In this document: positions 4,044-25,636 of the stretch, piece by piece
Position numbering within the stretch: the stretch's first letter is position 1
Layout: every line of letters starts with the position of its first letter
Origin: Halobacteriales archaeon QH_2_65_14
GTDB lineage: Archaea; Halobacteriota; Halobacteria; Halobacteriales; Haloarculaceae
Assembly (NCBI GenBank): GCA_003021285.1
Contig: PXQO01000099.1
Coordinates: 1-39,889 of the forward strand
Length of the DNA: 39,889 nucleotides
Direction: 5' to 3'
Notes under the pieces: model-generated
What the model was told of the DNA's origin: nothing
What the model saw: only the letters and a program-made list of their open reading frames with translations
The model's database searches: none
Program-made: the position numbers and the translations under genes

Positions 4044-4697
4044 ATGCGCCGACGAAAATTCCTCGCTGGCGCGAGTGTCGGGATCGTCGTATCAGTCACC
4101 GGGTGTCTCGAAGGCACTCCACTCGTCAACCAAACCGAGGGCAGTGATGGAACAGACGAAGATACATCTGATAATGGAGCAGATGACGAATACGAGTACC
4201 AGGCAGTCGAAGGCGAACACGAATTTGACGGAGGAACATTCACAATCAAACAATGGGGGAATCAGGAGCGTCAACTGTACCGTGAGCAGTACAGACTCGA
4301 ATATTTTGCCAATGCACAACGAGCCGTGAATTATTTCGACAATGAGCCGCTTCCCGAGAAATTACGGACCTTCGTCACAGAGACGGACTTCAATCAGGAA
4401 CGGCTCTTGTTGATTGCCTTAGAAGGATCAAATCCTGGATACCTTGACCTCATGATTCGGTCGTTCTCACTGAGCGATGAGACGCTCGCTGGGAGAACTG
4501 CTGGGTATGCCGAACAACTGTACGGTGGTAGCGGAGGCGCCCAACCAGCGGCGTTTATTCGAGTCACATTCAATGAGAAACCCGTCGAGACAGCTGAGTT
4601 TACAATCGTGGAGGGGCAATCTCCCGTTACGACCAACGGCAAATATATCGGTGGCGGCAGAGAAGTTACCCGCGAGGCGAGCACGCAGAACAAGTGA
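4044..4697 (+). CDS. Tat-exported lipoprotein of unknown function (copy 1)
   Basis: A 217-residue secreted lipoprotein that I do not recognise. The start MRRRKFLAGASVGIVVSVTGC has a twin-arginine signal (RRRKF) and a lipobox ending at Cys-21, so it is expected on the outer face of the membrane. An acidic Asp/Thr/Ser linker follows (DGTDEDTSDNGADDEYEY), then a ~150-residue globular domain with no motif I can name. The base composition is visibly less GC-rich than the neighbouring genes, which suggests acquired DNA. ATG 4044 lies about 27 bases downstream of a TATA-like gatactt. The paralogue at 5148 shares most of the sequence, including RSFSL and PAAFIRVTF segments. The integrase scrap between them suggests both arrived with a mobile element. 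Confidence 0.8.
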   Translation: MRRRKFLAGASVGIVVSVTGCLEGTPLVNQTEGSDGTDEDTSDNGADDEYEYQAVEGEHEFDGGTFTIKQWGNQERQLYREQYRLEYFANAQRAVNYFDNEPLPEKLRTFVTETDFNQERLLLIALEGSNPGYLDLMIRSFSLSDETLAGRTAGYAEQLYGGSGGAQPAAFIRVTFNEKPVETAEFTIVEGQSPVTTNGKYIGGGREVTREASTQNK

Positions 4698-4770
4698 ACT
4701 GACTCATCACACTGATTGGAGTTTTTGACTACCGGTTATCCCCGATTGGGATTGGTGTCTCGCATAAACT

Positions 4771-4869
4771 ATCGCCACATCACAGACCACATCTATCAAG
4801 AATCGCCTGTTAGAACGTCTGTATTTCCGACTAACGCGGTTTTTCGAAAGAGTGTGAGAACGGAAGATT
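4771..4869. repeat. 99-bp perfect direct repeat, copy A
   Basis: These 99 bases, from atcgccacatcacagaccac to gagaacggaagatt, recur without a single difference at 5925-6023. They lie downstream of each lipoprotein gene. The copies diverge at the next base on the right (a versus c). Flanking coding DNA of the two modules has many substitutions, so this tail is either under constraint or was recently homogenised. Confidence 0.95.
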
Positions 4870-4927
4870 AACGCATGGACACGGTGAGTTCCTGTTCTTC
4901 GGCATTCGCATACTGGTAGATTTCCGT
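4868..4927 (-). pseudogene. Unidentified C-terminal gene fragment
   Basis: On the minus strand a short frame reads EIYQYANAEEQELTVSMR and stops with a TAA that overlaps the end of repeat copy A. It has the look of the C-terminus of a real protein but is only about 20 codons long, with a stop just upstream. I cannot assign a family. It sits directly downstream of the integrase remnant in the same orientation. Confidence 0.3.
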
Positions 4928-4936
4928 TCATAATTT

Positions 4937-5116
4937 TCAGATGTCAGGAAGGTAATCGGTTCGTTGTTCGGCCTGTTCGCGGTCAGACCGGCGGTCATAG
5001 TGCCGGTCGAGAATGTCCTCGCTGGCATTGAGCCGTTCCTTTACTATACGGCGAGGCACGTCCTCTCGACAGTAGTAGGTCACGCGCCCGCTTCGGACAT
5101 CGTGGGGAGATCGAGC
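4937..5116 (-). pseudogene. C-terminal remnant of a tyrosine recombinase/integrase
   Basis: The minus strand between the two lipoprotein modules encodes only the catalytic tail of a haloarchaeal phage-type integrase. It reads SPHDVRSGRVTYY, then EDVPRRIVKERLNASEDILD, then RHYDRRSDREQAEQRTDYL and a stop. SPHDVR supplies the His-x-x-Arg catalytic pair and RHYD the nucleophilic tyrosine of the family. Intact proteins are over 300 residues; here about 57 remain and the left part ends where module copy 2 begins. It is therefore non-functional. With the broken tRNA-Arg at 6024-6077 it marks the site of a former integrated element. Confidence 0.8.
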
Positions 5117-5147
5117 GATTTAACTGTTCTTTTCTACAGTGTAACAT

Positions 5148-5852
5148 ATGCGCCGACGAAAATTCTTCGCTGGCGCGAGTGTCGGGATCATCATATCAGT
5201 CTCCGGGTGTCTCGAAAGCAATCCACTTGTCGAGCAAACAGGGAACCCTGATGGAACAGACGAAGATACATCTGATGATGGAACAGACGAAGATACATCT
5301 GATGATGGAACAGACGAAGATACATCTGATGATGGAGCAGATGACGAATACGAGTACCAGGCAGTGGAAGGCGAACACGAGGTTAGCGGAGGAACATTCA
5401 CAATCAAACAATTTGGGGAGGATCAGCGTAGCCTACACCGTGATTTTCAGTACGCCCTCGAATACTTCGCCGATGCACAGCGGGCCCTGAACTATTTCGA
5501 GAGTGATCCGCTCACAGAAGAATTGCGGGCTTTCATCACGGAGACGGATTTCAGTCAGGAACGACTCTTGTTTATCTGGACAAAGGGAGGAGATCCTGGA
5601 TACAGTGACGTCATGATTCGGTCATTCTCATTGACCGATGAGACGCTTGCTGGGAGAGCTGCTGCGTATGCCGATAAACTTATCGGCGCTGATTCAGTTT
5701 CCTATCCAGCGGCATTTATTCGAGTCACGTTCGATGAGGAACCGGTCGAGACAGCTGAGTTTACACTCGTGGGTGGTGTATATCGTGATGAAGAGAAACA
5801 TATTGGGAATGGACCCGAATATGCCCGTGAAGCAAGCACACAGAACGAGTAA
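5148..5852 (+). CDS. Tat-exported lipoprotein of unknown function (copy 2)
   Basis: A 234-residue paralogue of the gene at 4044, in the same orientation. It has the same twin-arginine start (MRRRKFFAGASVG), a lipobox with Cys-21 (SGC), an acidic linker and a ~150-residue globular domain of unknown function. The linker is longer because GTDEDTSDD is repeated three times by a perfect 27-bp DNA repeat (5250-5330). The globular domain has drifted from copy 1, with changes spread over its length, while RSFSL, ETLAGR and PAAFIRVTF are kept. ATG 5148 is about 27 bases after a TATA-like atttaact, consistent with a leaderless transcript. The gene is likely expressed at the cell surface; its role is unknown. 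Confidence 0.8.
   Translation: MRRRKFFAGASVGIIISVSGCLESNPLVEQTGNPDGTDEDTSDDGTDEDTSDDGTDEDTSDDGADDEYEYQAVEGEHEVSGGTFTIKQFGEDQRSLHRDFQYALEYFADAQRALNYFESDPLTEELRAFITETDFSQERLLFIWTKGGDPGYSDVMIRSFSLTDETLAGRAAAYADKLIGADSVSYPAAFIRVTFDEEPVETAEFTLVGGVYRDEEKHIGNGPEYAREASTQNE
5250..5330 (+). repeat. Three perfect 27-bp tandem repeats inside the lipoprotein linker
   Basis: The 27-bp unit starts gatggaacagacgaagatac and is repeated exactly three times (5250-5276, 5277-5303, 5304-5330), followed by a partial fourth copy. It encodes a nine-residue acidic repeat. Copy 1 of the gene carries the unit once (from 4146). The perfect identity points to recent slippage or unequal exchange. Confidence 0.95.
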
Positions 5853-24949: not shown

Positions 24950-25286
24950 CGGGTACCTTCGGTCGTGTAGCCGTACTCGAAGACGCTGTCCCGGTAGGCG
25001 TCGTCGATGCCCGGACCGTCGTCTTGCACGTAAACCCGTCGTCCGTGGTCCCGACTTCGACGCTCACGCCGGGATGGCCGTGGTCGACCGCGTTGCGAAA
25101 GAGGTTCTCGAAGACCTACAGGAGTTTGCTCCGGTCGGCCGGGAACTCGTCGCCGGAGACGACGGTCAGCGTGGCGTCCGCCGTGGCGACAGTCCCCCAC
25201 GCCTCGCGAGCAACCGTCGACAGGTCAAGCATCTCGGTCTCCTCGACGGTCTTGCCCTCCCGGGCGAGCGTGAGGACGTCCCTTAC
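24950..25286 (-). pseudogene. Second histidine-kinase remnant (HATPase region)
   Basis: The minus strand reads DVLTLAREGKTVEETEMLDL, then AREAWGTVATADATLTV, an amber TAG (25116-25118), then VFENLFRNAVDHGHPGVSVEV. After one missing T it continues YVQDDGPGIDDAYRDSVFEYGYTTEGT. NLFRNAVDHG is the N-box and DDGPGI the G1 box of a histidine-kinase ATPase. The sensor and phosphoacceptor parts and the G2 box are absent. It is from the same family as the remnant at 17719 but is a different gene. Confidence 0.78.
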
Positions 25287-25302
25287 AAACAACGAAACAA
25301 TG

Positions 25303-25517
25303 GGTACCGTTCAGATAAGAGATGCTCAGCGAAGACTCTGACCAGCATGAAAGCCCCGGGCGGCTACGCTCCCGCGACTCGCTGCGGTCCTCGGCCTGCG
25401 GCCTGCGGTCCTCGCAACGAGCGCAGTGAGTGAGGAGCACAGCGAGTCCCGGATGGTCGAACGGGTGGGGGCTTTCATGCTGTTCGCAACTCCGGTACCG
25501 CTTATCTGAACAGTGCC
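25303..25517. mobile_element. 215-bp foldback MITE with IS6-like ends and 8-bp target duplication
   Basis: The ends are GGTACCGTTCAGATAAG on the left and, reverse complemented, GGCACTGTTCAGATAAG on the right. GGCACTGTT is the start of IS6-family inverted repeats. Both sides are flanked by AAACAATG (25295-25302 and 25518-25525), a perfect 8-bp duplication, the size IS6 elements make. The interior is itself palindromic (AGCATGAAAGCCCC against GGGGGCTTTCATGCT, and GACTCGCTG pairs). No transposase is encoded, so it is non-autonomous. Confidence 0.88.
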
Positions 25518-25522
25518 AAACA

Positions 25523-25636
25523 ATGACACCAAAGCCATTAACAGCCGAGAGTGACAGTATCGGGACGATGGAAGACATTGAAATGGCCCACCTTGCAGGG
25601 GTGGTGGACGGAGCCGGGTTAATCAAAGTCAGTTGA
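25523..25636 (+). pseudogene. N-terminal fragment of a LAGLIDADG-type protein
   Basis: A 37-codon frame reads MTPKPLTAESDSIGTMEDIE followed by MAHLAGVVDGAGLIKVS and a stop. HLAGVVDGAG matches the LAGLIDADG helix of homing-endonuclease-like proteins that are common near haloarchaeal proviruses. Only the first motif is left. The MITE target duplication includes the ATG, so the insertion sits exactly at the start codon. The fragment cannot be an active endonuclease. Confidence 0.55.

Follow-up and report, generated by a model that had tools for sequence, protein, structure and literature searches.

Identification of an IS6-type MITE

The question raised by this locus is what kind of sequence a short foldback element in a haloarchaeal contig represents, which transposase moved it, and where its palindromic interior comes from. 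The window analysed here is the whole stretch of 39,889 nucleotides from contig PXQO01000099.1 of Halobacteriales archaeon QH_2_65_14, and the element, read directly from the window sequence, occupies 215 bp at positions 25303-25517. The first-pass annotation had described a 215-bp foldback element with a perfect 8-bp duplication and a strongly palindromic interior, and both descriptions were confirmed. The octamer AAACAATG is repeated exactly at the two boundaries, and the TIRs are complementary at 15 of 17 positions (Table 1). On the forward strand the right TIR reads CTTATCTGAACAGTGCC and is directly abutted by AAACAATG; in the inward orientation it is identical to the ends of IS6 elements from other haloarchaea. 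Within the element, the outer pair of inverted arms (18 nt each) is 94% complementary and an inner pair (25372-25392/25432-25452) is 86% complementary. The predicted single-stranded DNA fold of the element has an energy of -60.1 kcal/mol compared with -40.6 +/- 3.3 kcal/mol in shuffled sequences (z = -5.9), and 0 of the 200 shuffles folded as well. A frame check detected no transposase-like frame inside the 215 bp; the element is short, non-coding and bounded by TIRs, as a MITE is.

Table 1 Coordinates of the duplication, ends and internal segments of the element in the window
Feature	Sequence	Positions	Strand	Basis
Target-site duplication, left copy	AAACAATG	25295-25302		Exact match to 25518-25525
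Left TIR	GGTACCGTTCAGATAAG	25303-25319	+	15/17 complementary to right end; 14/17 identical to C84 IS6 left end
Left subterminal segment	AGATGCTCAGCGAAGACTCT	25320-25339	+	Lies within arm common to C43 copy
Core outer stem, 5' arm	GACCAGCATGAAAGCCCC	25340-25357	+	Pairs with 25468-25485; arm also found at core boundaries in other genomes
5' half of core hairpin A		25358-25414	+	Comparison with full cores
3' half of core hairpin B		25415-25467	+	Comparison with full cores
Core outer stem, 3' arm	GGGGCTTTCATGCTGTTC	25468-25485	+	Pairs with 25340-25357
Right subterminal segment		25486-25500	+	Alignment of 18 copies
Right TIR, inward	GGCACTGTTCAGATAAG	25501-25517	-	16/17 identical to C84 IS6 left end
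Target-site duplication, right copy	AAACAATG	25518-25525		Exact 8-bp repeat, abuts right end

The source genome is a MAG of 1.96 Mb in 113 contigs with 64% completeness, and a search of it with the element returned approximately 40 places, corresponding to about 30-40 copies. A left-end pattern derived from most copies (GTTCAGATAAGAGATTCTCAAAGAG, up to three mismatches allowed) gave 28 matches in the MAG and 0 in the reversed control, showing that the element is multi-copy and sits at unrelated sites. Copies are probably undercounted, since nine contig ends fall no more than 32 bp from one. Pairing of the ends yielded 18 two-ended copies of 164-295 bp. Ten of these, the window copy included, carry an exact 8-bp duplication (AAACAATG, AGCGAGCG, AGTCGTCC, GATTCGAC, CGACTTCC, CGCCGAAC, CTGTCCCC, ACGGGGTG, GGTCGCTG and GTTCGGAC), which is the duplication length of the partner family described below; the ten octamers have no evident target consensus. 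One further copy has a duplication matching at 7/8 positions, and three have exact duplications of 9, 9 and 7 bp. The listing of other copies and their duplications that the first-pass annotation had proposed thus returned many of them, and because the copies show duplications at the predicted place, a chance origin of the window duplication is excluded. Two copies, L018:1156-1352 (contig C43) and L029:1181-1409 (contig C27), have left arms on both sides, the latter being a perfect outer palindrome without a duplication; these copies represent either end exchange or assembly chimeras. The idea that the MITE came from a phage or a plasmid was rejected, as the searches gave no phage match and a single plasmid match at 31% coverage.

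Mobility and insertion site

The claim that the element had recently moved was borne out in part. The perfect duplication agrees with it, as does the left arm, whose 49 bp at element positions 8-56 match one arm of the C43 copy (C43:1696-1744) with 100% identity; against it, the nearest full copy is only 78% identical to the window element, and no empty site orthologous to the window insertion was found in relatives, because the DNA on either side is not conserved. Upstream lies a histidine-kinase remnant with DNA similarity to many places in relatives. The downstream flank leads to uvrA, and the MITE is absent from the 1.5-kb flanks at the uvrA 3' ends of four relatives, where the intergenic DNA is not alignable. 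An empty site was found for a sister copy. The 240-bp copy on contig C110 sits between two genes that are still neighbours in congeners, and its joined flanks match 11 congeners with 12-53 bp between the aligned gene pieces, a gap too short for the 240-bp element, which is therefore absent there. The site is thus polymorphic, occupied in the MAG and empty in 11 congeners. In addition, the left-end pattern was detected in 0 of 96 related genomes, 17 of which belong to the same genus. For the family, an old fixed structure was accordingly rejected.

The first-pass annotation also placed the insertion on the start of a LAGLIDADG-type frame, with duplication of the start codon. The frame in question, only weakly present, comprises 37 codons (25523-25633) and has neither a Pfam match nor a relative in 59 genomes or 72,556 plasmids. 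With no recognisable domain or homologue, insertion of the element at a LAGLIDADG endonuclease gene was rejected; the ATG is duplicated as letters, but a gene start there is unsupported. What does adjoin the insertion is the degraded histidine-kinase remnant (24962-25281, minus strand), whose frames are broken and whose weak HATPase_c match falls under the cut-off. Elsewhere in the window, positions 4044-5852 hold two similar adjoining lipoprotein-like genes (217 and 234 aa); a DGTDEDTSD segment is repeated in the second gene, and the pair looks like a tandem duplication.

A putative IS6 partner transposon

A search of the MAG with the IS240/IS6 DDE model placed one element, on contig C84, above the cut-off and two, on C104 and C103, below it. 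The C84 element (C84:1992-2688, 697 bp) has the ends GGCATTGTTCAGATAAG / GGCATTGTTCAGATTAG, and its transposase was assigned to NCBIfam NF033587 (IS6 family transposase) with 176.6 bits against a cut-off of 125. A DDE transposase, a length of approximately 700 bp and GGCATTGTTCAG ends are characteristic of archaeal IS6 elements; the C84 copy itself lacks an 8-bp duplication, which is found on homologous copies. Similarity between the MITE and the C84 element is limited to the approximately 17 bp of the ends (Table 1). The second IS6 element, on C104, differs from both in its ends (GGTCGCGTTAA) and was ruled out as the partner. The transposase gene of C84 (L051:1046-1666) carries TAG in place of a Trp codon (FAFA*NQLI compared with FAFAWNQLI in homologues), five codons before the stop of the homologues, and it is the sole C84-type copy found. 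Given this codon and the lack of a duplication around it, the activity of the C84 copy is not assured, and a better partner may be missing from the 64%-complete MAG.

Homologues of C84, 691-699 bp in length, were found in Halorientalis, Halorussus, Halobellus, Halopenitus, Haloplanus and other haloarchaea. Most have GGCACTGTTCAGATAAG- or GGCGGTGTTCAGATAAG-type ends and several have perfect 8-bp duplications; examples with the same ends are the elements of Halorientalis regularis (87%) and of genome G050 (82%), the G050 copy being flanked by the perfect duplication ACCCCATA. The description of the element as non-autonomous and IS6-like, for which a search for full-length elements with the same ends had been suggested, is upheld by the C84 element in the same genome and by its homologues elsewhere. 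The MITE resembles the archaeal (Halobacteria) IS6 clade and its MITEs in its GG..CC ends, its TIR of approximately 17 bp with TGTTCAGATAAG and its 8-bp duplication. Known IS6-family MITEs include two with lengths of 227 and 336 bp (PMC7986276), as well as MITEBth2 and MITEHarch3 (ISfinder), which are named in PMC6807381. Like IS6 MITEs, the window element is small and lacks a transposase gene, with full-length elements sharing its ends, 697 bp long, in the same genome and in the haloarchaea named above. Its assignment as a non-autonomous IS6-type MITE is therefore well supported.

The palindromic core as a separate repeat

Comparison of the element with related genomes gave matches in 50 of 97, mainly to element positions 41-110 and 111-184 and not to the ends; positions 111-184 are 96% identical to a segment in another genome (G017:C20). 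Seven genomes examined more closely contain 15 to 48 matches each. The matches define a core of approximately 230-350 bp in which an outer stem, GCA[T/A]GAAAGCCCC...GGGGCTTTC[A/T]TGC with outermost bases that differ among lineages, encloses hairpin A, then hairpin C, then hairpin B. Hairpins A and B look like inverted copies of each other, while hairpin C has the form CCCCTTTCAGTCCC[A/G]CCC...GGG[T/C]GGGACTGAAAGGGG. Complete cores without IS6 ends were found in intergenic DNA of other haloarchaea. The exact hairpin C pattern is present in 66 of the 392 genomes of the class, across 27 genera and with up to 23 sites per genome, and is 0 in all genomes for the reversed control; since this pattern equals its reverse complement, forward and reverse counts refer to the same sites. 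Judged from these distributions, the palindromic interior is not specific to the MITE, the core repeat mostly occurring without IS6 ends. A search of open-access main texts for the end and core sequences returned no relevant paper.

One possible account, which we consider doubtful, is that selection maintains the core as a functional structured RNA or cruciform DNA and that the MITE merely spreads it; it could serve, for example, as a bidirectional terminator or as a site for the nucleoid or for replication. Consistent with this, the core of genome G075 (256 nt) is predicted to fold into a cloverleaf with a closed four-way junction at -172.7 kcal/mol. Stems A and B also differ in sequence between copies and remain complementary within a copy, with 12.8 and 12.3 of 14 positions paired within the copy compared with 8.0 and 7.8 of 14 when the arms are paired with those of other copies (permutation p <= 2e-4 for 14 copies, which are related, making the p value a guide only). 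In nearly all plasmid matches to the core, no annotated gene lies beneath. Two points weigh on the other side. Hairpin-templated correction or wholesale module exchange would also keep the arms complementary without selection, and a known structured RNA family was rejected, the window element having no Rfam match and full cores giving only miRNA-type hairpins below the gathering score.

Among the plasmids, hairpin A and the start of hairpin C adjoin a gene annotated as 'DNA-binding protein' in L203, L204, L207 and L205. A PQQ beta-propeller gene lies on the other side of the core-like DNA in the first three, which come from several haloarchaeal families, and is unannotated in L205. These shared neighbours probably reflect related plasmids.

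The distribution of the core could also be read the other way, with the interior having evolved inside a mobile family of IS6-type MITEs and the core-only copies being old MITEs whose ends have decayed. Among the haloarchaeal loci, the core at L145 in genome G059 has degraded IS6-like ends on its two sides (GTGGTGTTCAG / AGTAGTGTTCAG), and IS6 transposases are common in core-bearing genomes. The core at L090 lies inside a MITE whose IS6-like ends are intact but different (GGTAGTGTTTACTTTAGC / GGTCGTGTTTAGTTAAG) and whose 8-bp duplication (GTACTCAC) is perfect, and ends of this type also occur on IS6 elements of the group. However, among 33 core-boundary pairs from related loci, GG..CC ends with a 7-8 bp duplication were found only in L090, and the core-rich genomes G059, G081 and G075 have no such transposase at E <= 1e-20. 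Furthermore, three species of a different genus (L163:1287-1550 in G075, L188 in G018 and L190 in G061) share an orthologous intergenic site where the core is complete and has no IS6 end beside it; in two of them at least, the outer stem is intact. These results make the decay of former MITEs a rather unlikely origin for the core-only loci. The relation between the two may run in either direction: IS6 ends may have captured the core, or the core-only loci may be what is left of MITEs without their ends. At the orthologous site, extra hairpins are inserted in hairpin A of one species, and the loop of hairpin C varies while its stem is largely kept.

The window copy and the reliability of the assembly

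Relative to a full core, the window copy joins the 5' half of hairpin A directly to the 3' half of hairpin B and is missing the rest of hairpin A, all of hairpin C and the inner halves; CTGCGGTCCTCG is present twice in the retained half of A. Other copies in the MAG keep more, with a complete hairpin A in L012 and hairpins C and B in L020. From these copies, a full MITE of approximately 300-340 bp is likely, probably carrying hairpins A, C and B in that order.

The assembly is unreliable inside such palindromes. Runs of N occupy the centre of five or more MITE copies, and at the end of contig C57 (L044:880-1315) a perfect palindrome reaches past the core into unique flank, a probable assembly artefact. 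Owing to these N runs and this palindrome, collapse of the window copy is not separable from a real deletion. The same observations, together with the nine contig ends near copies, would be expected if the 215-bp copy or its interior were itself an artefact of the MAG assembly. This is very improbable: the element's two flanks differ, its 8-bp duplication is exact, the contig extends approximately 25 kb to one side and 14 kb to the other, and the same family is found with duplications at many other sites.

Proposed mechanism and significance

Taken together, the window element is very probably an IS6-type MITE moved in trans by a C84-type transposase, with a piece of an independent three-hairpin repeat as its cargo. 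In this mechanism, the 17-bp ends would be recognised in trans by an IS6-family transposase, either that of C84 or a close relative, which would insert the MITE with duplication of 8 bp of target. IS26-type and other bacterial IS6 elements form cointegrates that are resolved by recombination (PMC7986276), while for the archaeal members of the family there are no experimental data (PMC6807381). By analogy with the studied elements, the MITE would be copied in as a cointegrate, which homologous recombination between the two copies would then resolve. Its cargo does not derive from a transposase but is a piece of the haloarchaeal three-hairpin repeat, which also exists independently and would have been acquired by a pair of IS6-type ends. 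The variation in length among copies may be due to slippage in the palindrome, and the window copy would have been shortened either by deletion in the palindromic centre or by collapse in short-read assembly. A broader proposal has, in our estimation, about an even chance of being correct: that these undescribed and widespread three-hairpin, four-way-junction repeats of haloarchaea change their stems while keeping them paired, either by compensatory changes or by swapping entire hairpins, and that IS6-type transposons of differing specificity have captured them independently as MITE cargo and so spread them through genomes.

Compared by description, the element differs from the catalogued IS6 MITEs in that its interior is a separately occurring three-hairpin repeat. 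It resembles the HqIRS MITEs of Haloquadratum walsbyi in its many copies, in having only terminal bases in common with its mover, and in a target duplication set by the mobilising transposon (PMC3119063). The SMRs and PATEs of Haloquadratum are likewise short non-coding mobile repeats of haloarchaea, and PATEs have near-terminal palindromes; in contrast to the IS6 ends and 8-bp duplications of the window element, PATEs are IS605-related and have no TIRs, and SMRs make no duplication (PMC3119063). As a multi-copy intergenic palindrome, the core is similar to bacterial REP/BIME sequences, from which it differs in its size of approximately 230-350 bp, its three hairpins on a four-way junction and its haloarchaeal distribution. 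Copies of bacterial MITEs whose ends are lost come to look like REPs (PMC10969869).

The MITE represents a new family within a known kind, and its cargo sets it apart as a variant. Alone it would be ordinary, yet it is cleanly documented by a partner in the same genome, by its duplications and by the empty site of a sister copy. Its interior points to a structured multi-copy repeat in at least 27 haloarchaeal genera, for which no name was found in Rfam or in the searched open literature. If the core is kept as a folded element, it would be a candidate regulatory, terminator or chromosome-structure feature of these archaea; if it is only cargo, it would illustrate how foreign palindromes come to be captured between IS6 ends and spread by them.
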